This document shows, one piece after another, positions 35,520 through 58,696 of a DNA stretch of 60,108 nucleotides (the stretch's first letter is position 1; every line of letters starts with the position of its first letter). The position numbers and the translations under genes are program-made. This DNA is from a bacterium (lineage in GTDB: Bacteria > Actinomycetota > Acidimicrobiia > Spongiisociales > UBA5794), in assembly GCA_024228555.1 (NCBI GenBank), contig JAAETI010000866.1, positions 1 through 60,108 on the forward strand, in the 5' to 3' direction. The notes below the pieces were generated by a model, which worked only from the letters and a program-made list of their open reading frames with translations, did not search any database and was not told where the DNA came from.

Positions 35520-36671
35520 CTAACGGGCTAAGCCATATGACTCGAGTTGGTCGACATACATGTTGAGGAACCGTGAGGCAACGGCGCCATCGATCACCCT
35601 GTGATCGAACGACACCGAAACCGGGAACACCGGGGCGATCGCTATTGCCTTGTCCCGAACGACGACGTCGTCCTCAGCCCGCCCGATCGAAACGATCGCG
35701 GTAGTGCCATAAGGAATGATCGGTGTCCCATAGCCTCCACCGACCGCACCCACATTCGACACTGTGAACGTACCGCCGGTCAGTTCGCCGAGACCCAGAG
35801 ACCGCTCCATCGCTCCAGAGCTCAGCCTTGTGATCTCTTCGCTCAACTGGAGCAGGTTCATAGTCTCCGCATTCCGCACCACGGGGACCATCAGCCCGGC
35901 TTCGGTGTTGACGGCGATCCCTACATGCGCACCCTCACTGATCTGCAGCGCAGTGCCGTCGAAGTTGGCGTTGAACTCGGGGAACTCGGCCAGCACCGGA
36001 AGCACGGCTTTCACCAGCAGCGCTTCCAGCGAGAGCCCCGTTTCCTTCTTCGCCGCCAAGATCCGGCTGGCGTCGGCGGATCGCCACACCGTCACATGGG
36101 GAATCTCGGTCCACGATTGGGTCAGGTTCCGAGCGATGGTGCGACGCATTGCGGTGAGGGTCTCGCCCTCGAATGATGAGTCCTCGGTTGGCATGCTTGC
36201 GGCGGGCGCCTCGGGTTGCGCCGCAACTGCTTTGACATCGTCACGGGTGATCTTCCCGCCAGCACCGGTGCCGGTGACTGCGGCTAGATCAACACCGAGC
36301 TCGCGAGCGAGCTTGCGCACTATCGGCATGGCCCGGATCGGTGCGTCTGCAGCCAGCGGCCGTTCCTCTGCGAACACGATTGGATCGGGATCAACGACCG
36401 GTTCGGAGGACGTCTCCGTTTGCCAGTTCTCGCCGGCTCCACCAACCACCGCAAGAAGCTCTCCGACTTTGATGACGGCGCCCTCGGGACCGCCACGATG
36501 CAACAGCACACCCGCCTGTGGCGATGGGATTTCCACGACCGCCTTGTCGGTCTCCACCTCGACCAGAGGTTCGTTCACCGTGACGGTTGCTCCCTCCGCA
36601 ACCAGCCAGCTAACGATCTCGGCCTCGGTCAAACCCTCCCCGATGTCGGGGAGATTCAGCTCGTACGCCAT
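35520..36671 (-). CDS. 2-oxoacid dehydrogenase E2 (dihydrolipoamide acyltransferase)
   Basis: ATG 36671 (MAYELNLPDIGEGL) overlaps the E1 stop by one base and gives 383 aa. The single lipoyl domain has the lipoylated lysine in E-T-D-K-A-V-V-E-I. An E3-binding domain follows (A-M-P-I-V-R-K-L-A-R-E-L-G-V-D, then G-T-G-A-G-G-K-I-T-R-D-D-V). The catalytic domain ends with the active-site H-R-V-I-D-G. It passes acyl groups from E1 to CoA. With the Lrp-type regulator upstream, branched-chain 2-oxoacids are plausible substrates, but pyruvate is not excluded. Confidence 0.93.
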   Translation of the reverse strand: MAYELNLPDIGEGLTEAEIVSWLVAEGATVTVNEPLVEVETDKAVVEIPSPQAGVLLHRGGPEGAVIKVGELLAVVGGAGENWQTETSSEPVVDPDPIVFAEERPLAADAPIRAMPIVRKLARELGVDLAAVTGTGAGGKITRDDVKAVAAQPEAPAASMPTEDSSFEGETLTAMRRTIARNLTQSWTEIPHVTVWRSADASRILAAKKETGLSLEALLVKAVLPVLAEFPEFNANFDGTALQISEGAHVGIAVNTEAGLMVPVVRNAETMNLLQLSEEITRLSSGAMERSLGLGELTGGTFTVSNVGAVGGGYGTPIIPYGTTAIVSIGRAEDDVVVRDKAIAIAPVFPVSVSFDHRVIDGAVASRFLNMYVDQLESYGLAR

Positions 36672-38779
36672 CAGCTGTTCACCGTTTCCCGGATCGCGGC
36701 CGCAATCTGCTCCCCGGTGAGCAACGCATGCTTCTCGATCTTGAACTGTGGCCACGGTGCGTCGGTCGCGGCCAGTCTTCTGATCGGCGCCTCCAGCGAA
36801 TAACCACAGCGTTCGGCAATGGTGGCTGCAATCTCAGCGGCAACGCCGCCGCTTCGCTGGGGCTCCTGAACCAGGAGTAGCCGGCCGGTCCGCTCCACAG
36901 ACTCGGCGACGGTCTCGAAGTCCCATGGGTAGATGGTGCGGAGATCGATCACCTCAGCCGATACCCCTTCGGCTGCGACATCCTCGGCAGCCTGGAGCGC
37001 CAGCGTCACCATCGCACCGTAAGTGACGATGGTGACGTCTGTGCCTCCGCGCCTCACACGCGCCCTCCCCAACGGGATCGTGAAATGGTCTGATGGGACG
37101 TCCTCGCGTTCTGCCCGATACAGCACCTTGGGCTCCATGAAGACAACCGGATCCGACGACTCGAGGGCGGCAGCCATGAGGCCCTTGGCGTCGGTGGGTG
37201 TTGATGGGATGACAACGACGAGACCGGGGGCGTGTGTGAAGTAGGCCTCAGGGCTGTCGCAGTGATGTTCGTGCGCACCGATACCCGCTCCATTGGGGAA
37301 CCGAAGCACGACTGGCACCGATGCGTGACCACGACTGCGGAACCGAATCCGCCCGAGATGGCTCGCAACCTGGTCGAATGCGGGGTAAACAAATCCTTCG
37401 AACTGCACCTCGGCAATGGTGCGGCTACCCGAGACGGCCATCCCGATCGCGGCGCCGAGGATGCCCGATTCGTTGAGCGGCGAGTCGATCACCCTGCCCT
37501 CGCCAAAGCTCTGCTGGAGCCCCTCAGTGAGACGGAACACCCCGCCCGACAGCCCGACATCCTCGCCGAGAAGGATGAGGTCATCGTCCTGCTCCATCGC
37601 CTGCTGCATCGCAGAGTTGATCGCCTCAGCCATGGTCCAATTCTCTGTCGGCCCGTCCGGCGCAATCTCCTCTTCGACAATCCAGCGATCCGCATCGTCG
37701 AAGACCGTCTCGGGCTCACCGGCCAATCGCTGCAGATCGTGAAGCTGGTCCTCGAGGATCTGCGGGATACGATCGTATGTGTGGCGGACTATGTCATCAC
37801 GCCCTGGCACCTCAGCACGCTCCAGGCGGGCAAGGGCCGAATCGAAGAGCGCCCCGCTCTCGGCGAGCAAGGCCTGCTCCTGCTCATCATTCCAGAGTCT
37901 GCGCCGCTGCAGCAGTCGGCTCATACGCAGGACCGGATCCAATGGTCGCCACTCTTCAACTTCGGATTCGCTGCGATACCGGGTGGGATCATCCGCAGTC
38001 GCATGAGGGCCGTAGCGATAACAAATCGCCTCAATGAGCGTCGGACCGTCCCCTGAGCGGGCCCGCGCCACCGCCTCCTTGGTGACCTGATACATCGCAA
38101 GCGGATCCATCCCATCAACCTGCACACCGCGCATCCCGTAGGCGATGGCCTTCTGGGCGACCGACTCGGCTGCCGTCTGTTTGCGATAAGGAACCGAGAT
38201 CGCATACCCGTTGTTGGCGCAAATGAACACGGTCGGCGTGTTCCACACACCGGCGAAGTTCAACCCAGAGTGGAAGTCGGTCTCAGAGGTCGCACCGTCA
38301 CCAAAGTAGGTACCCGTAACGGTGTCCTCGCCACGCAGCCGCGCTGCATAGGCATGGCCGACGGCATGCGGCAGCTGGCTGGCGATGGGGACCGTGATCG
38401 TCATCATCCGATAGCGATCAACGTCCCAGTCCTGGTTGGGATGCCCTCTCCAGTAGCCGAGGATGACATCGTGGGGCATGTTGAACGCCAGCTGCACACC
38501 GTGCTCGCGGTAGCCCGGGTAGATGAAATCGTTCTCGCCAAACGCCATTGCCGACCCGATTTGAACGGCTTCGTGACCTTCGAGCATGGCGTACGTGCCG
38601 AGACGACCCTGGCGTTGTGCCATGACGGCACGCCGATCGAAATCTCGGCTCAGCACCATGAGCCGGTACATCTCGACGAGTTCCTTTTCGTCAAGCCCGG
38701 GGTGCGGGCCGACCAAGACTCCGTCGGGGGTCAATAGCTGAAGCGGTTCTCCAAGAGAATACGAAACATCCGAAGTCAT
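36671..38779 (-). CDS. 2-oxoacid dehydrogenase E1, alpha and beta subunits fused
   Basis: A single 702-aa polypeptide contains both E1 chains. Residues 1 to about 345 are E1-alpha with the thiamine diphosphate motif G-D-G-A-T-S-E ending N-N-G-Y-A-I-S. Residues about 370-702 are E1-beta (E-D-V-G-L-S-G-G-V-F, then Q-F-E-G-F-V-Y-P-A-F-D-Q, then H-H-C-D-S-P-E-A-Y-F). A G/A-rich ribosome site (GGGAGAGG) lies before the ATG. It is co-transcribed with E2, and no E3 gene follows. The first step is decarboxylation of a 2-oxoacid and reductive acylation of lipoyl-E2. Pyruvate versus branched-chain specificity is not decided by sequence. Confidence 0.92.
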   Translation of the reverse strand: MTSDVSYSLGEPLQLLTPDGVLVGPHPGLDEKELVEMYRLMVLSRDFDRRAVMAQRQGRLGTYAMLEGHEAVQIGSAMAFGENDFIYPGYREHGVQLAFNMPHDVILGYWRGHPNQDWDVDRYRMMTITVPIASQLPHAVGHAYAARLRGEDTVTGTYFGDGATSETDFHSGLNFAGVWNTPTVFICANNGYAISVPYRKQTAAESVAQKAIAYGMRGVQVDGMDPLAMYQVTKEAVARARSGDGPTLIEAICYRYGPHATADDPTRYRSESEVEEWRPLDPVLRMSRLLQRRRLWNDEQEQALLAESGALFDSALARLERAEVPGRDDIVRHTYDRIPQILEDQLHDLQRLAGEPETVFDDADRWIVEEEIAPDGPTENWTMAEAINSAMQQAMEQDDDLILLGEDVGLSGGVFRLTEGLQQSFGEGRVIDSPLNESGILGAAIGMAVSGSRTIAEVQFEGFVYPAFDQVASHLGRIRFRSRGHASVPVVLRFPNGAGIGAHEHHCDSPEAYFTHAPGLVVVIPSTPTDAKGLMAAALESSDPVVFMEPKVLYRAEREDVPSDHFTIPLGRARVRRGGTDVTIVTYGAMVTLALQAAEDVAAEGVSAEVIDLRTIYPWDFETVAESVERTGRLLLVQEPQRSGGVAAEIAATIAERCGYSLEAPIRRLAATDAPWPQFKIEKHALLTGEQIAAAIRETVNS

Positions 38780-38813
38780 GACACCTCTCCCTACACGATC
38801 TGACAGGTAGAAT

Positions 38814-38873
38814 GGCGATATCTATATACAGATTGCTCACATTCTTGTCTGTATAGTCTACAAAAATATCGCC
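38814..38873. promoter_or_regulatory. Nested A/T-rich inverted repeat between E1 and Lrp genes (candidate Lrp operator)
   Basis: Two complementary arm pairs are nested: GGCGATAT (38814-38821) with ATATCGCC (38866-38873), and TATACAGA (38825-38832) with TCTGTATA (38848-38855). The region is markedly A/T-rich in a GC-rich genome and lies between divergent starts, where Lrp-type regulators usually bind. Arm spacing is uneven (3 against 10 bases), so it is more likely a set of protein sites than one hairpin. Confidence 0.6.
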
Positions 38874-38920
38874 GCCTGATGCACAGACAATACAAAGTGT
38901 GACTGGATCCCGAGGAGAAC

Positions 38921-39403
38921 ATGCCGGAATCGGCCAGAATCGACGAATTGGACGGGAGACTGATCGCCGCCCTCAGCGAGACGCCGCGCATCGGAATTCA
39001 GGAGCTATCCAACCGTCTCGGCATCACCAGGACAACGGTCTACGCCCGGTTGGAGAAGCTGGAGACGGCAGGGGTTCTCACGGGCTTTGGTGCCGATATC
39101 GATTTCTCAACTTTCGGCTACGGGGTCACCGCATTCATCACGATCGAGTTGCAGCAAGGCAGGTTTAACGATGTTGTCCCTGTCCTCGAGGCCATGCCCC
39201 AGGTAATCGAGGCGCATGCGCTCGCCGGCGAGGGCGACATAATCTGCCGAGTTGCGGCACGTAGCAACGATCACTTGATGGAGCTTGTGCAGACGATCCT
39301 CAGCACCAAAGGGGTCCGCCGCTCGTCGACCGCCATCTCTCTCGAGCAGTTCATCAGACACCGGACACTCCCCCTCGTGCTCCACGCCAGCGGCATCGAA
39401 TAG
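38921..39403 (+). CDS. Lrp/AsnC-family transcriptional regulator
   Basis: The 160-aa protein has a winged-helix N-terminus (D-E-L-D-G-R-L-I-A-A-L-S, then I-G-I-Q-E-L-S-N-R-L-G-I-T-R-T-T-V-Y-A-R-L) and a RAM ligand-binding domain (A-F-I-T-I-E-L, then A-L-A-G-E-G-D-I-I-C-R-V). GAGGAG precedes the ATG. Such regulators form octamers and sense amino acids. Its divergent position next to a 2-oxoacid dehydrogenase operon parallels bkdR arrangements, so control of that operon and itself through the dyad at 38814-38873 is likely. Confidence 0.93.
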   Translation: MPESARIDELDGRLIAALSETPRIGIQELSNRLGITRTTVYARLEKLETAGVLTGFGADIDFSTFGYGVTAFITIELQQGRFNDVVPVLEAMPQVIEAHALAGEGDIICRVAARSNDHLMELVQTILSTKGVRRSSTAISLEQFIRHRTLPLVLHASGIE

Positions 39404-39426: not shown

Positions 39427-40752
39427 ATGACCCAAGTCGTTGTCTGTGGTGCCGGGATTGCGGGGATCTCCACTGCGTTTCATCTGACCCGGATGGGGGT
39501 CACGGACATCGTTATCGCCGACCCGCTCCCACCTCTAACCCTGACGAGCGACAAGTCCACAGAGTGTTACCGCAACTGGTGGCCCAACGAGCCGATGGTG
39601 CGGCTGATGAACAGATCGGTTGAGCTGCTTGACAGGTATGCCATCGAGTCGAACGACATCTTCGACCTCAACCGGCGCGGCTATCTGTACCTGACGAGCG
39701 ACACCGCAGCTCTCGACCAAATTGCAGCCACGGCGGCAGCTGCAACAACCGCCGGTGCCGGCGAGCTCAGAGTCCATGGCACCGGCCACAGCAAGTATCG
39801 ACCCGAGCCCGACCATCCAATCGACGGTGCAGACCTCTTTATCGACGGGGACGAACTACGCACACACTTCCCTTTCGTTACCGAAGCGGCAGTCGGAGGT
39901 CTCCACGCCAGAGTCGCCGGGTGGCTATCAGCCCAGCAACTCGGCGCATGGATGCTCGACCAAGCCGTGGAGGCGGGTGCAGCCTTGGTTCGCTCCCGGG
40001 TTGAGTCCGTCTCGACCAAGCTGGGCCAAATCGACGGTGTATCGCTGGAAGACGGAACCCACATCGCCACCCCGACATTTGTCAACGCGGCAGGACCGAT
40101 GTTGCGCGAGATCGGTCTGATGACCGGTGTCGATCTACCGGTGTTCTCAGAGATCCACGCCAAGGTGAACCTACGTGACCACGCCCATGTGGTCCCCGGC
40201 CACGCACCGATGATGATCTGGAGCGACCAGCAAGAGATCGACTGGAGCGAGGACGCCATTGCGTATCTTCGCGACGAGGGCAGATCAGACCTCATCGGTC
40301 TCATGCCATCCGGTTGCCACGCCCGTCCTGAAGGTGGCTCCGACTCGCCGTGGGTCCTCGGGCTCTGGGAGTACCACACCGAGCCGGTGGAGCCGACCTG
40401 GCCGATCCCCTTTGACGTGTTGTACCCGGAGGTGGTCCTGCGCGGACTCACCACGATGATTCCCGCGCTATCCGGTTACCGGGATCGCATACCAGAGACC
40501 ATCGTCGACGGCGGCTACTACACGAAGACCATCGAGAACCGACCGCTCGCCGGGCCGGCCGGCCCTCGTGGCTCATTTGTCTGTGGTGCCCTGTCTGGGT
40601 TCGGCATCATGGCCGCCTGTGCCGTCGGCGAACTGACGGCCATGGCAGCCACCGGAGGCGAGCTACCCAAGTGGGCACGTTGGTTCGACGTGAGTCGGTA
40701 CAACAACCCTGGCTACCTCGACACGGTTTCCGGTGACACGGGCCAGATCTGA
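39427..40752 (+). CDS. FAD-dependent amine oxidoreductase (DAO family)
   Basis: The 441-aa protein starts 23 bp after the Lrp gene and is probably co-transcribed. The FAD Rossmann motif V-V-V-C-G-A-G-I-A-G-I-S-T-A is at the N-terminus, and the C-terminal FAD segment is N-R-P-L-A-G-P then G-A-L-S-G-F-G-I-M. The layout matches the D-amino acid oxidase/sarcosine oxidase-beta group, which oxidises secondary or primary amines to imines with hydrogen peroxide or an electron acceptor. The linkage to Lrp and an aminotransferase suggests an amino-acid derivative; the substrate is unknown. Confidence 0.87.
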   Translation: MTQVVVCGAGIAGISTAFHLTRMGVTDIVIADPLPPLTLTSDKSTECYRNWWPNEPMVRLMNRSVELLDRYAIESNDIFDLNRRGYLYLTSDTAALDQIAATAAAATTAGAGELRVHGTGHSKYRPEPDHPIDGADLFIDGDELRTHFPFVTEAAVGGLHARVAGWLSAQQLGAWMLDQAVEAGAALVRSRVESVSTKLGQIDGVSLEDGTHIATPTFVNAAGPMLREIGLMTGVDLPVFSEIHAKVNLRDHAHVVPGHAPMMIWSDQQEIDWSEDAIAYLRDEGRSDLIGLMPSGCHARPEGGSDSPWVLGLWEYHTEPVEPTWPIPFDVLYPEVVLRGLTTMIPALSGYRDRIPETIVDGGYYTKTIENRPLAGPAGPRGSFVCGALSGFGIMAACAVGELTAMAATGGELPKWARWFDVSRYNNPGYLDTVSGDTGQI

Positions 40753-40761
40753 TTTCGGTTG

Positions 40762-41835
40762 CTATCCCAAAGCCGCGGCTAGGGCATCCAACAACACCTG
40801 GTTCTCATCCTGAGTGCCAACGGTGACGCGGATGAATGGACCCATGGGACGAACGATCACCCCAGCCTGCAACAACCGTTCGCCCAGTTGTGGGGCATCT
40901 CCGTCGGGCCGGATGAGCACGAAGTTCGTTTGGCTCGGGATGTAGTCAAGACCCAGCTTGGCGAGACCGGCCTCGAGCAAACTCCGTGCCGTGTCGTTGC
41001 CCCGAATCCGCTCGGCCAGCCGGTCCGGGTACTCCAACGCAGTGAGAGCGCCTACCTGCGCCATCGAGTTGACGGAGAACGGGACCTGGGCCTTGCGCAG
41101 CTGCGCCAACGTCTCCGGTTGTCCGACCATGTAACCGACCCGCAGACCGGCGAGGCCAAACACCTTGGAGAAGGTCCTGGCGACAACCACGTTGTCTCGA
41201 GCCAGAGCCAGGGCAATCGCAGTGTCATAGTCCTCGCTGGTAACGAACTCGCAATACGCCTCATCGACGACAACGAGTGCATGATCGGGAACGGCAGCAA
41301 TGAAACTGGCGACGTCGTCGGCTGCCAACCATGTCCCGGTGGGATTGTTCGGATTACACACGAAGACCAACGACGTGTCTGGTCGAATCGCCGCCAGCAT
41401 TGCATCCAGGTCGTGGCCCAATCCTGCGGTCGACGGCACGGCAATCGGTTCGGATCCGGCCAGCGCTGCGGCGATGGGATACATAACAAAGGACGGGTCT
41501 GCAAAGACCACGCTCGTGCCATGTCCGCCAACCGCGATGGCTGTGCACAAGATCAGCTCAGTGCTGCCCGCACCCATCCACAGGTTGTCTCCAGGAATGT
41601 TGAGATAGTCGGCTAGAGCATTGACGAGATGGAAGACCGAGTTCTCTGGGTAGCGGTTCAAGTCTCTGGTCGCCGCGGTCAATGCATCCTGCACCTCAGG
41701 GAACGGAGCAGCGGGCCACTCGTTTGATGCAAGCTTGACGATCTCCTCGATACCGAGCTCACGGGATACCTCATCGATCGGCTTGCCGGGCCGGTAGACG
41801 GGTACTCCTCCGAGATCCGTACGAAACGCGGGCAT
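40762..41835 (-). CDS. Histidinol-phosphate aminotransferase family protein
   Basis: ATG 41835 (MPAFRTDLGGVPVYRPG) has AAAGGTGG just upstream and gives 357 aa. It is a fold-type I PLP aminotransferase: L-A-S-N-E-W at the start, C-N-P-N-N-P-T-G, V-V-D-E-A-Y-C-E-F, the PLP lysine in R-T-F-S-K-V-F-G-L-A-G-L-R-V-G-Y, and the closing R-P-M-G-P-F-I-R-V-T-V-G-T. HisC-type enzymes act in histidine synthesis, but this stands away from other his genes, so an aromatic aminotransferase role is also possible. Confidence 0.88.
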   Translation of the reverse strand: MPAFRTDLGGVPVYRPGKPIDEVSRELGIEEIVKLASNEWPAAPFPEVQDALTAATRDLNRYPENSVFHLVNALADYLNIPGDNLWMGAGSTELILCTAIAVGGHGTSVVFADPSFVMYPIAAALAGSEPIAVPSTAGLGHDLDAMLAAIRPDTSLVFVCNPNNPTGTWLAADDVASFIAAVPDHALVVVDEAYCEFVTSEDYDTAIALALARDNVVVARTFSKVFGLAGLRVGYMVGQPETLAQLRKAQVPFSVNSMAQVGALTALEYPDRLAERIRGNDTARSLLEAGLAKLGLDYIPSQTNFVLIRPDGDAPQLGERLLQAGVIVRPMGPFIRVTVGTQDENQVLLDALAAALG

Positions 41836-41922
41836 CACTACCACCTTTCGATTGCCTGGGACCAGGTTACGACTTCTGCAGGCAACCCGAACAAGACTTG
41901 GGAGGCGAACCCGCTCCCGGTT

Positions 41923-54548: not shown

Positions 54549-55247
54549 CTAGCGGGCGGGTGACCTACCCTCGATGTTCCCTATCGCAACTCCTCCAAGG
54601 CTGCCGAAGACCCACGGCCAGAGCAAATCCCCTGTAGAAGAATCGGAGATAATGCTCGATGCGAGAACGACCCAGGTTCCAATCCCGAGCCAGAATAGCG
54701 GTACCGCTACCGTCATCACCCTGTCACGTCGCTGGCGTGTGGCGACCTTGTCTCGAAACCCGGCCACTCCTTCGATGCGACCGTCGAGCCTGAAGTCGCT
54801 TGCGTCACCATTGCTGAAGACTTGGACTTCGAACCAATCCCGGCCGTTGAGGAGTAGCGGATCTATCTCGACGTACAGGTCGAGGTCCCTAGCGTCCTCG
54901 ACAAGGCTCACGTGAGGCCGAATCGAGGGGGACGAGGAGTCCGCAACTTTGGCACCTAGCAAGTAGGCGGAATCGAAGGTGATTCGAAGTGGGCGGTCGA
55001 AGTCGGAACTCTTGATGGGCCTCCGCCCCGAATTGACCAGCTTCAGCGCAAGAATGTGCACATCGGGAGGATTCGATACCTGCTCCCACCGCACGCTGAG
55101 GTACTGACCCAGCAACTCCCTGTCACCGAGTACCGGTCTGTTGTAAGTGACTTCGTAGTCGAGGGCCGCACGTGGGCTGCGACGCAGCCCGAAATACCAC
55201 GTAGTGATCAACCCGATAGTCGTAAGCAGCAGGCCAAGTACTTCCAT
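54549..55247 (-). CDS. Membrane protein, 232 aa, element cargo, unknown function
   Basis: One hydrophobic helix lies at the N-terminus (LGLLLTTIGLITTWYFGLRR) and two near the C-terminus (VPLFWLGIGTWVVLASS and LLWPWVFGSLGGVAIG). A beta-rich middle of about 150 residues (R-P-I-K-S-S-D-F-D-R-P-L-R-I) lies between them. Similar N-terminal helix plus D-Y-E-V-x-x patterns occur in uncharacterised cargo of mobile elements. It lies 87 bp upstream of, and reads in the same direction as, the Mrr gene, so co-transcription is possible. Confidence 0.65.
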   Translation of the reverse strand: MEVLGLLLTTIGLITTWYFGLRRSPRAALDYEVTYNRPVLGDRELLGQYLSVRWEQVSNPPDVHILALKLVNSGRRPIKSSDFDRPLRITFDSAYLLGAKVADSSSPSIRPHVSLVEDARDLDLYVEIDPLLLNGRDWFEVQVFSNGDASDFRLDGRIEGVAGFRDKVATRQRRDRVMTVAVPLFWLGIGTWVVLASSIISDSSTGDLLWPWVFGSLGGVAIGNIEGRSPAR

Positions 55248-55367
55248 GGCCCCAGTGTAAACACCGGCGGACAGGCCGCTCAGCCACAGCGAGAACCGGC
55301 AATTGCGATGAGCCGCAACGACCCAGAACGCCTACGCAAGTCCCTGCTGGCAATAGGTTATGGATGC

Positions 55368-55373
55368 TATGAT
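55368..55373 (+). promoter_or_regulatory. Candidate -10 element of the recombinase promoter
   Basis: TATGAT at 55368-55373 lies 36 bases before the chosen ATG in a locally A/T-rich segment with two direct copies of TGCTATG. No clear -35 hexamer is seen. Confidence 0.4.
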
Positions 55374-55409
55374 TGCTATGGACATAGAAACAAATTCTTT
55401 TGGACCACC

Positions 55410-57500
55410 ATGAAGACCCCGCGAGTTGCAACCTACGCCAGAGTGTCCACCGAGGAACAGGCCTCAGAAGAGGCAACCTCGCTCGACGAGCAGCAGAAGA
55501 AGACGGACGCCTACGCTATCTCCAAGGACGCAGAGGTCGTCGACCGCTTCACCGACGATGTCTCGGGATCGATCTCGCTTGCCGACCGCCCCGGCGGGGC
55601 CGAACTCCTCTCGGCAGCCCGGAGTGGTCAATTCGACCTCGTCGTCGTTGCCAAGCTCGACCGCTTCTCCCGAAACCTTGTCGCCGGAACTGCCGACCTC
55701 CAGAAGCTCAAGAGCCATGGCATCGGCGTTGTGTTCCTCGACTTTGGCGTGGATACATCGACTCCGACCGGCGAACTCATGCTCTCGGTCATGCTGGCCT
55801 TCGCAGACTTCGAGCGAAAGCGCATCCGGGAACGCATGACGGACGGCAGGGCCGGACGAGCACGTCTCGGCAAGTGGTCAGGCGGGCGACCCCCCTACGG
55901 GTATCGGATCGGAGCGGAGGGGAGGCTTGAACTCGACCCCGACGAGGCCCCAGTCGTCGAACACATCTTCGCCCTTGCAGCAGCTGGGAGGACGCCATAT
56001 CAGATAGCCGAAATTCTGACCGATGGCGGGACACGAGCGAGGACCCGAAATCGGAAGGTCAACGGCCGCCCAGAACCGCACTCCCCCGCATTCACCCACG
56101 GCACGGTCAAGGGCATCCTCCAGCGGGATGCGTATAAGGACCTCGGGGACGGGGATGGTCCCGGCATCTTGAAGCATCATCGGGTGGAGTACGAATACCG
56201 GACCGACGACAACGGCGAGTTCATCCTCGATAGCGAGAGGCAAAGGATACGTGATCAGGTCCCCGGCTCGGGTGAGCCATTCACGATCCCGGCGCCATCG
56301 ATCGTCCCGGCCGACACCTGGAAGAAGGCCAACAATGCGCTCCAAAAGCGAGCAAGGGTACGCCGCTCCAATCCCCCGACACAGGTATGGACCACCAAGA
56401 ACGGCCGCAAGATTCGGGGTCGTGGGTACGGCCTAGCCGGGCGAATCGTCCACGAGCACGCAGATGGATTCGTTTCGATGACCGGTGAGCCACGCAAGGG
56501 AATTCGCCGCTACGTTTGCTCCGCCAACGAGACGTGCTCGGGTTTCGGACCTGCCCCCCGGGGCGGCTCGACCATCAAGTCGCTCGTTGCGTCCGAGGTA
56601 GACGCGGTAGCCCTTTATCACCTGCTCGACGTGCTCGAAGACGAGGAGAGGCTCGGCAAGTTGGCTGCCGAGTACGTGGCCCGGCTGGACGACGAGGACA
56701 AGGTCGCCGAGACCTCCGAGACACTGGCCGAGAGGGTGGACAGGCTGGATACAGGTCGCAAGCGCCTCGCTCAGGAGGTCATCCGATTCGGACTCTCCGA
56801 CCAGGAAGCAGAAACAATGCGGGCCGAGCACGAGAGCAAGCTGGCCGATGCTCGCCACGCACTCGACCTCGCCCTTGACAGGGAGCGACGCCGAGAGGTC
56901 GTTACCCATACTGTCGAGAGCCTCGTCGAGGCCATCTCGGCTATCGACTGGGAGAACGTCAAGGTCGAGCCGGTGACGACAGGGGAGTTGCCGCTCCCGA
57001 AAGCTGGCACCGTCCTCGACGTGCAGGAGTTCCACAGGGTGTCAACTATCTTGAAGGAGGCGGCAAGAGACGTCGCCCGTGCGGAGAAGCGATACGGCCT
57101 CCGCCATGCCGAACTACGAACGGAGGCCGTCGAATGGCTACGAGCGATAGTCGAGAGTCTCGACCTGGTGTTGGTGATTCGGGGAGCCGACCCGACGGGC
57201 TGGGACTTGGTACCAGCGAGCGAAGCACCACGGGCCACTCGTGGGACGAGTGCGGTATCTGTTCGCAGAAGCTCGAAGCCAAGACGCCGCTCGAAGCCGC
57301 TCCTGGGTGGACGAAGCACTCCATCTTCTATCAGATCTTCCCTGACCGTTTCGCCAAGTCAGATCGGGTCTTCAAGCCAACGAACCTGCAGGAGTGGGGT
57401 GCCGATCCAACAGGCCACGCTTTCCAGGGCGGAGACCTGCTCGGCATCGCCGAGAACCTCGATTACCTGCAAGACCTTGGGATCACCGCCCTCTATTTGA
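55410..57500 (+). CDS. Large serine recombinase (integrase of the element)
   Basis: ATG 55410 (MKTPRVATYARVSTEEQ) gives 696 aa in the integrated state. The catalytic domain has the nucleophile S13 in Y-A-R-V-S-T, then D-R-F-S-R-N and the G-E-L-M-L-S-V-M-L-A-F-A-D-F-E-R helix. A recombinase domain (R-P-P-Y-G-Y, then G-T-V-K-G-I-L-Q-R-D-A-Y) follows. A zinc-ribbon region shows only one clear cysteine pair (Y-V-C-S-A-N-E-T-C). A long coiled coil lies at about 410-530. The last 54 residues, after the core at 57335, are read from host GH13 DNA in the wrong frame. In the circular form the product should be 675 aa with a different tail. Confidence 0.93.
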   Translation: MKTPRVATYARVSTEEQASEEATSLDEQQKKTDAYAISKDAEVVDRFTDDVSGSISLADRPGGAELLSAARSGQFDLVVVAKLDRFSRNLVAGTADLQKLKSHGIGVVFLDFGVDTSTPTGELMLSVMLAFADFERKRIRERMTDGRAGRARLGKWSGGRPPYGYRIGAEGRLELDPDEAPVVEHIFALAAAGRTPYQIAEILTDGGTRARTRNRKVNGRPEPHSPAFTHGTVKGILQRDAYKDLGDGDGPGILKHHRVEYEYRTDDNGEFILDSERQRIRDQVPGSGEPFTIPAPSIVPADTWKKANNALQKRARVRRSNPPTQVWTTKNGRKIRGRGYGLAGRIVHEHADGFVSMTGEPRKGIRRYVCSANETCSGFGPAPRGGSTIKSLVASEVDAVALYHLLDVLEDEERLGKLAAEYVARLDDEDKVAETSETLAERVDRLDTGRKRLAQEVIRFGLSDQEAETMRAEHESKLADARHALDLALDRERRREVVTHTVESLVEAISAIDWENVKVEPVTTGELPLPKAGTVLDVQEFHRVSTILKEAARDVARAEKRYGLRHAELRTEAVEWLRAIVESLDLVLVIRGADPTGWDLVPASEAPRATRGTSAVSVRRSSKPRRRSKPLLGGRSTPSSIRSSLTVSPSQIGSSSQRTCRSGVPIQQATLSRAETCSASPRTSITCKTLGSPPSI
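57122..57136 (+). promoter_or_regulatory. Shine-Dalgarno and ATG for a second frame inside the recombinase gene
   Basis: GGAGG (57122-57126) stands exactly seven bases before ATG 57134, which opens the frame that continues into the host GH13 gene. It lies within the recombinase coding sequence. The spacing is ideal, but chance occurrence cannot be ruled out. Confidence 0.55.
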
Positions 57501-58696
57501 ACCCGATCTTCACCAGCGGCGCCAACCATCGCTACCACACAGACGACTACTACCAGGTTGACCCCCTGCTGGGCGGGGACGAGGCGCTCGATGAACTGAT
57601 CGCCGCTTGCCATGACCGTGACATGCGAATCGTGCTCGATGGCGTCTTCAACCACGTCGGCCGTGGCTTTCACCAGTTCCACAGCATCGTCGAAAACGGT
57701 GCCGAGTCGCCGTATGTGGACTGGTTCACCATCGATGGATTCCCCCTCAACCCCTACGGCAAGGGGCCGGCCAACTATCTGGGTTGGTACAACCTGAAGC
57801 CGCTCCCCCGCCTCGACACCGACAATCCCGTCGTCCGTGAATTCACCATGCAGGTCGCCGAGCACTGGCTGCGCAAGGGCATCGACGGATGGCGTCTCGA
57901 CGTCCCGGTCGAAATCACTGCTGATGGGTACTGGGAGGAGTTCCGAGAGAGGGTCCGAGCGATCAACCCCGATGCCTACATCGTCGGTGAGATCTGGGAG
58001 GACTCCACCGACTACATCGCCGACGGCACTCGCTTCGACGCCACCATGAACTACCTACTGACCGTCGAAATCATCTCGTTCGCCGTTGGTGAGCACATCG
58101 ACCCACCTCATGTCGTGCCCAATCCCGCATACGCCGGAGTCGGCGCCATCGACGCTGCCACATATGCAGCCCGAATCGACACGCTCTTCGCTCGCTATCC
58201 GATGCACGCCCACCAAGCCAATCTCAACCTGCTCGAGTCACACGACACCGCCCGGCTGCTGACAACAGCGTCCAATGACCGGGCCTCGCTGATCCTGAGC
58301 ACTCTGCTCACCATGACCTTCCCCGGTGCGCCATGCATCTACTACGGAAGCGAGGTCGGAGTTGCTGGATCGTTGGATCCGCAATGCCGCCGTGCTTTCC
58401 CCTGGAACGAAAGCGAGTGGGATGTCGAGCTGCTCGAAGCTCACCGCACCCTGACGGCCCTCCGTCATGCCCATCCCGCGTTGCGCGCACCCGGCTACCG
58501 CCACCTGTCGACCGAAGGACACCTCTACGTGTTTGAACGATTCGACGAATCGGAACGGCTCGTGGTTGCAGTCAACGCCGGCGATGACGAAGCCACTGCG
58601 TCGATCTCCGTCAGCGGACTGCTCTGGGGTCAGGCGACATCCGACCAGGACCACATCACCGTCCCGGCCCGCTCCGGCGCGGTGTGGCGTCGCTAG
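57134..58696 (+). CDS. GH13 alpha-amylase-family enzyme re-headed by the element (hybrid ORF)
   Basis: The 520-aa frame has 67 element-encoded residues (W-D-E-C-G-I-C-S-Q-K, then L-E-A-A-P-G-W-T-K-H-S-I-F-Y-Q) followed by 453 host residues. The barrel is intact: I-F-P-D-R-F-A, L-Y-L-N-P-I-F, D-G-V-F-N-H-V-G, the nucleophile aspartate in G-W-R-L-D-V-P, the acid/base glutamate in V-G-E-I-W-E-D and the third aspartate in E-S-H-D-T-A-R. These are features of cyclomaltodextrinase/neopullulanase enzymes that hydrolyse alpha-glucans; a TIM barrel and a C-terminal beta domain are present. Whether this hybrid is made depends on initiation at 57134. Originally it was a 472-aa protein starting at 49720. 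Confidence 0.85.
   Translation: MATSDSRESRPGVGDSGSRPDGLGLGTSERSTTGHSWDECGICSQKLEAKTPLEAAPGWTKHSIFYQIFPDRFAKSDRVFKPTNLQEWGADPTGHAFQGGDLLGIAENLDYLQDLGITALYLNPIFTSGANHRYHTDDYYQVDPLLGGDEALDELIAACHDRDMRIVLDGVFNHVGRGFHQFHSIVENGAESPYVDWFTIDGFPLNPYGKGPANYLGWYNLKPLPRLDTDNPVVREFTMQVAEHWLRKGIDGWRLDVPVEITADGYWEEFRERVRAINPDAYIVGEIWEDSTDYIADGTRFDATMNYLLTVEIISFAVGEHIDPPHVVPNPAYAGVGAIDAATYAARIDTLFARYPMHAHQANLNLLESHDTARLLTTASNDRASLILSTLLTMTFPGAPCIYYGSEVGVAGSLDPQCRRAFPWNESEWDVELLEAHRTLTALRHAHPALRAPGYRHLSTEGHLYVFERFDESERLVVAVNAGDDEATASISVSGLLWGQATSDQDHITVPARSGAVWRR
57324..57335 (+). repeat. Right attachment site core (attR)
   Basis: TCTTCTATCAGA, the second copy of the core. The 25 bases to its left are also partly similar (13 of 25) to those left of attL, in codon register, because both encode the same GH13 segment. 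Confidence 0.85.

Follow-up and report, generated by a model that had tools for sequence, protein, structure and literature searches.

A 17-bp palindrome inside a nested dyad as the predicted operator between an Lrp/AsnC regulator gene and a fused 2-oxoacid dehydrogenase operon

Is the large nested inverted repeat found between a gene for an Lrp/AsnC regulator and a divergent 2-oxoacid dehydrogenase operon the element that controls both, or does it mark a control region in which another element does the work? The repeat lies in the 141 bp that separate the start of E1 (38779, minus strand) from that of lrp (38921, plus strand) in a stretch of 60,108 nucleotides, which is referred to here as the window. 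The genes around the gap are:

35520..36671, minus strand: E2 acyltransferase (Pfam PF00364, PF02817, PF00198), its start probably an ATG overlapping the E1 stop
36671..38779, minus strand: fused 2-oxoacid dehydrogenase E1 alpha-beta, 702 aa (Pfam PF00676, PF02779, PF02780; TIGR03181 above cut-off)
38921..39403, plus strand: Lrp/AsnC family regulator (lrp), 160 aa (Pfam PF01037, PF13404 above cut-off)
39427..40752, plus strand: FAD-dependent oxidoreductase of the DAO family (Pfam PF01266), 23 bp behind lrp

The original prediction was right to speak of an E1-E2 operon, as the stop of the fused E1 overlaps the likely E2 start in the junction TGATG (36673-36669). On the other side, lrp and the oxidoreductase gene are possibly co-transcribed. 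The regulator consists of a winged helix-turn-helix and a C-terminal Lrp/AsnC ligand-binding domain, both above their gathering scores, and it matches solved AsnC and Lrp chains. It stays under the cut-off of all 10 NCBIfam models matched, including those of the E. coli-type equivalogs (AsnC, 75.6 of 227 bits; Lrp, 36.2 of 233 bits). E1 has orthologues (about 60-79% identity) in many genomes of the family, and most of these lie behind a hisC-like aminotransferase gene. Such a gene precedes E1 in relatives but not in the window, where it lies at 40762-41844 (minus strand), beyond lrp and the oxidoreductase gene and about 2 kb from E1.

The repeat itself is as first described: two exactly complementary 8-bp arm pairs in an A/T-rich island between divergent starts. 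The dyad has a GC content of 36.7%, as compared with 44.7% for the gap and 60.8% for the window. Its arms, given with their fate in L007, a locus of the same genus, are:

38814..38821, plus strand: left outer arm GGCGATAT, probably fortuitous (6/8 at best in the L007 gap)
38825..38832, plus strand: left inner arm TATACAGA, inside the motif match described below and left part of the predicted operator
38848..38855, plus strand: right inner arm TCTGTATA, overlapping the probable lrp -10 element (best match in the L007 gap 6/8, elsewhere)
38866..38873, plus strand: right outer arm ATATCGCC, probably fortuitous (6/8 at best in the L007 gap)

Perfect 8-bp arm pairs with a span of at most 60 number 100 in the window versus a mean of 65 in 40 shuffled windows. 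This is the window's sole nested perfect 8-bp dyad of that span; shuffled windows hold a mean of 0.075 (n=40) and nested pairs arose in 2 of 5000 gap shuffles, a chance test that was picked post hoc, with the feature already seen. A third exact 8-bp pair in the gap, TTGTCTGT (38845-38852) with ACAGACAA (38883-38890), overlaps the right inner arm and interlocks with the inner dyad.

A symmetric motif search was run on the 220 bp upstream of 45 of 56 orthologue loci of the regulator; training left out the window, L007 and nine closely related loci from a single genus. The search learned the palindrome CTGnnCAnnnTGnnCAG with a log-likelihood of 262, as compared with 22.5-26.3 in six shuffled sets, which were given 20 restarts rather than 60. 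Across the entire 60-kb window, the best match to this motif falls in the gap, where it takes in the left inner arm and half of the dyad loop and lacks the outer C and G of the consensus:

38824..38840, no strand assigned: predicted main operator for the Lrp/AsnC regulator, ATATACAGATTGCTCAC, top motif match of the window (15.9 bits)

Matches as good as this are expected 0.15 times per shuffled window and occurred in 0.26% of 5000 gap shuffles. A second matrix, built from 22 hppD-linked loci outside the window's family, again placed 38824 first, at 13.2 bits, with the next match at 13.0; the two training sets have loci in common and neither includes the window. The hppD-linked motif comes out as a palindrome also in a search free of any symmetry constraint, and with the hppD-only matrix the window regulator has upstream the CTGnnCAnnnTGnnCAG-type site expected of hppD-linked regulators. 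The runner-up at 58295 (14.7 bits with the 45-locus matrix, 13.0 with the hppD-only matrix) is taken as a chance match rather than an operator; it sits inside a reading frame that reads like an alpha-amylase. A long frame (55056-57500) which reads as a large serine recombinase overlaps the start of an alpha-amylase-like frame and may mark a mobile element. A genome-wide pattern search allowing two mismatches gave 89 places versus 83 for the reversed control and was useless for finding further targets. At least two sites are present in 25 of 47 loci, with spacings of 42-43 bp in 16 of 35 cases and 32-33 bp in 8 of 35.

Samples of relatives and of the family, order, class and phylum were searched, and apart from the window L007 alone turned up with this regulator facing the fused E1. 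Its regulator is 82% and its E1 78-79% identical to those of the window, and a DAO-family oxidoreductase again lies behind lrp (59% identity over residues 1-149, where the L007 contig ends). The gap of L007 keeps the blocks GTATAGTCTACAAA, AATACAAA and ATATACA. The arms had been expected to be conserved wherever both genes are kept, and this failed at the sole comparable locus: the outer arms and the right inner arm are lost, and the gap contains no perfect pair of arms 7 or 8 bases long. Where the left inner arm of the window aligns, L007 reads TATACATA; an exact copy of that arm is found 33 bp nearer E1, inside the top motif match upstream of L007 lrp (CTATACAGATTGCCAAC, 13.0 bits; 0.2% in shuffles of the L007 gap). 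The strong sites of the two genomes lie at different positions, 33 bp apart, and each genome has a weaker look-alike where the other has its strong site. In the window this look-alike is:

38791..38807, no strand assigned: second operator, possibly decayed, CTACACGATCTGACAGG (1.1 bits; 33 bp from the main site)

The second site is not significant alone; it sits where L007 has its strong site and agrees with it in 9 of 17 letters.

One may argue that the entire 60-bp nested dyad is the operator, with a regulator multimer holding both the inner and the outer arm pairs. The dyad is unique in the window and rare in shuffles, L007 has a shorter CTATAC / GTATAG pair, and Lrp-type proteins often have several spaced sites, according to an excerpt of PMC8707732. 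Moreover, the right inner arm with its next base ends in TGTATAG, which resembles an operator half-site, although the listed 17-mers that span this arm score below 0 with the 45-locus matrix. We nevertheless consider this reading improbable, and the dyad was rejected as a regulatory unit, because its arms are not conserved. Beyond their loss in L007, nested dyads occur in only 2 of the 56 orthologue upstream regions, the window and L084, with a different sequence in the latter, and no good motif match coincides with the outer arms, both of which are probably due to chance. Of the operator claim, what stands is a motif site placed for both divergent genes; what falls is the nested dyad as the element. 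The comparison points to the 17-bp palindromic site, together with a GTATAGTCTACAAA block that resembles an lrp promoter, as the element that is kept.

The motif accompanies the regulator. With the 45-locus matrix, 48 of the 56 orthologue regions (mostly training loci) reach at least 13 bits and eight stay under it, versus none of 15 scored paralogue regions; the paralogue control comprised 21 loci, the other six of which had no match in the local search. The outside-family matrix gives 10.9-19.7 bits for ten loci from the family of the window, all of which were held out, and no more than 8.1 for the 15 paralogues. The picture is mixed in 15 more distant relatives, about 7 of which reach 13 bits with the 45-locus matrix.

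The hisC-E1 operons of the family provide a further comparison, which was rerun with the outside-family matrix because the 45-locus matrix had seen four of the hisC gaps. All five operons with the regulator near score 10.8-19.7 bits before hisC. In L009, L010, L012 and L013, where the regulator is beside hisC-E1, the scores are 13.7-19.7 bits; in L112/L150, where it is about 2 kb off, the score is 10.8 bits (13.5 with the 45-locus matrix, which gives 10.6 before lrp). By comparison, no score above 6.3 bits was reached before hisC in 15 hisC-E1 operons whose genomes yielded no orthologue at E 1e-30. This test took the 22 E1 loci L092-L113, leaving out L114-L119; it dropped L093 and L108, which had no hisC match, and L094, L095, L096 and L101, which repeat loci already counted; L112 was placed among the operons with the regulator near, since its regulator is on the same contig. 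Because the compared genomes share ancestry and are in part incomplete, the rows are not independent and a regulator may have been missed. One that is truncated at the end of a contig can escape detection, as in G016, and G030, counted as without regulator, holds a 47-residue piece at 43% identity, below the cut-off. None of 12 further candidate related loci was used: two from Streptomyces look GntR-type and have only the helix-turn-helix stretch in common, L037 was discarded at 27% identity, and the other nine are the same 29-residue match. In the window, no motif site was found before the hisC-like gene or the oxidoreductase gene, the best scores being -0.5 and -8.3 bits, respectively.

These data also bear on whether chance in an A/T-rich promoter gap could have produced the dyad and the motif match alike, with E1-E2 controlled otherwise. 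Sites of this type are short, the window site is off-consensus at both ends, and a comparable match lies inside a reading frame. On the other hand, the site ranks first in 60 kb with two training sets that exclude the window and co-occurs with the regulator across hisC-E1 operons, which makes such a coincidence very unlikely.

A simple promoter scan found no sigma-70-like promoter in the gap. The conservation of GTATAGTCTACAAA in two genomes suggests one of the following form:

38852..38857, plus strand: probable -10 element of the lrp promoter, TATAGT, within GTATAGTCTACAAA (identical in L007) and overlapping the right inner arm

Toward lrp, the predicted operator lies 12-28 positions upstream of TATAGT. 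This covers the expected -35 position of lrp, and binding should therefore repress lrp. Toward E1, it is found 45-61 positions ahead of the start codon; in L007 the strong site is closer, at about 11-27 positions. One weak terminator-like match was seen on the minus strand at 38890-38872 (0.2 expected). That the dyad acts as a DNA hairpin or cruciform, or as an RNA element of a leader transcript, was rejected as highly improbable: single-strand DNA folding of the 60-mer does beat 200 of 200 shuffles (z of -4.0 and -2.9 for the two strands), but this restates the arm pairing, three of the four arms are lost in L007, the left inner arm with the adjoining part of the loop fits a motif common to other families, and an lrp RNA that starts just downstream of TATAGT, as seems probable, would lack the left arms.

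The descent of the regulator offers a clue to the origin of the site. In a tree of 71 rows, the regulators of the window and L007 pair with a support of 100/99 and group with four hisC-linked regulators and one hppD-linked regulator (83/87), within a larger set in which 26 of 35 regulators are hppD-linked. The branches joining the window regulator to the hppD-linked ones are modestly supported (83/87, 81/83 and 83/92), and the neighbour genes of the orthologous regulators agree with the tree. The orthologous regulators L050, L051, L058, L060 and L065 face a gene that reads like a heme-oxygenase-fold protein, with hppD next behind. L089, L146 and L147, in which the regulator is divergent from E1 alpha and beta encoded separately, make up a clade of their own, and the window regulator falls outside this BkdR-type grouping of the phylum. 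From these modest supports we infer that tyrosine breakdown is the probable origin of the regulator-operator unit, which in the window faces E1-E2.

The hppD-linked regulators of the window's phylum bear the motif used here and are likened, by description, to HpdA (SCO2928) of Streptomyces coelicolor, a member of the AsnC family and regulator of hppD. The window regulator differs in that its divergent neighbour and predicted target is the fused E1 with E2 rather than hppD; the window's genome (97.7% complete) gave no match to an hppD query from L036 that detects hppD at 43-76% identity in other loci. Sinorhizobium meliloti, which has the regulator HpdR, belongs to a different phylum from the window's. 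A 2007 paper on S. coelicolor, cited among the references of PMC8857197, states in its title that HpdA activates hppD and that hpdA is under negative autoregulation; an excerpt of PMC8857197 itself names HpdA with tyrosine catabolism. HpdR is presented, in a passage of PMC7014725 citing the work, as an AsnC family activator of hpdA, and it is likened here by description: AsnC-type activation of 4-hydroxyphenylpyruvate dioxygenase with 4-hydroxyphenylpyruvate and tyrosine.

The position of the regulator is, again by description, like that of Pseudomonas BkdR, an Lrp/AsnC protein that, in the excerpt of PMC8707732, is divergent from the bkd operon for a branched-chain 2-oxoacid dehydrogenase and activates it; PA2577, the subject of that paper, represses its divergent gene. 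The difference is that those regulators of the window's phylum that lie by separate E1 alpha and beta genes stand outside the window's clade. Streptomyces BkdR (SCO3832) is likened by description as well; its deletion in S. albus is reported to have changed valine-degradation genes little, and a keyword search found no literature tying it to Lrp or AsnC. A regulator back to back with the metabolic genes it controls is thus a known kind of arrangement, of which the window, with its palindromic site between lrp and the metabolic operon, is a further example.

With this in mind, we have good confidence, from sequence comparison, that the gap is the control region of the local Lrp/AsnC regulator, with a dimer on 38824-38840, repression of lrp and control of E1-E2; autoregulation and E1-E2 control, as the original prediction had it, are plausible. 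According to this model, a regulator dimer would bind the 17-bp palindrome and further dimers would probably engage weaker neighbouring sites about three helical turns off; the spacings of 42-43 and 32-33 bp seen among the orthologue loci fit a multimer that holds phased sites. Bound over the lrp -35 position, this complex would repress lrp and the oxidoreductase gene behind it. The same complex would control E1-E2, most probably by activating the operon in the presence of an amino acid or the corresponding 2-oxoacid. Activation of E1-E2 is favoured over repression by a narrow lead, because of the HpdA and Pseudomonas BkdR precedents.

One may further speculate, with a little less than even confidence, that a regulator-operator unit of tyrosine breakdown was carried to hisC-E1-E2 and then, in the window's lineage, came to face E1-E2 alone once hisC had moved, the strong operator having since switched by 33 bp in two genomes of one genus. 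If this is true, Lrp-type control may tolerate swapping which of its phased sites is the strong one. The analysis offers a concrete predicted 17-bp operator, and a consensus, for an AsnC-type regulator group found across this phylum, and it links a fused 2-oxoacid dehydrogenase to that group, the site being present where the regulator was found and missing where it was not. It also illustrates that an eye-catching dyad can mark the right place for the wrong reason.
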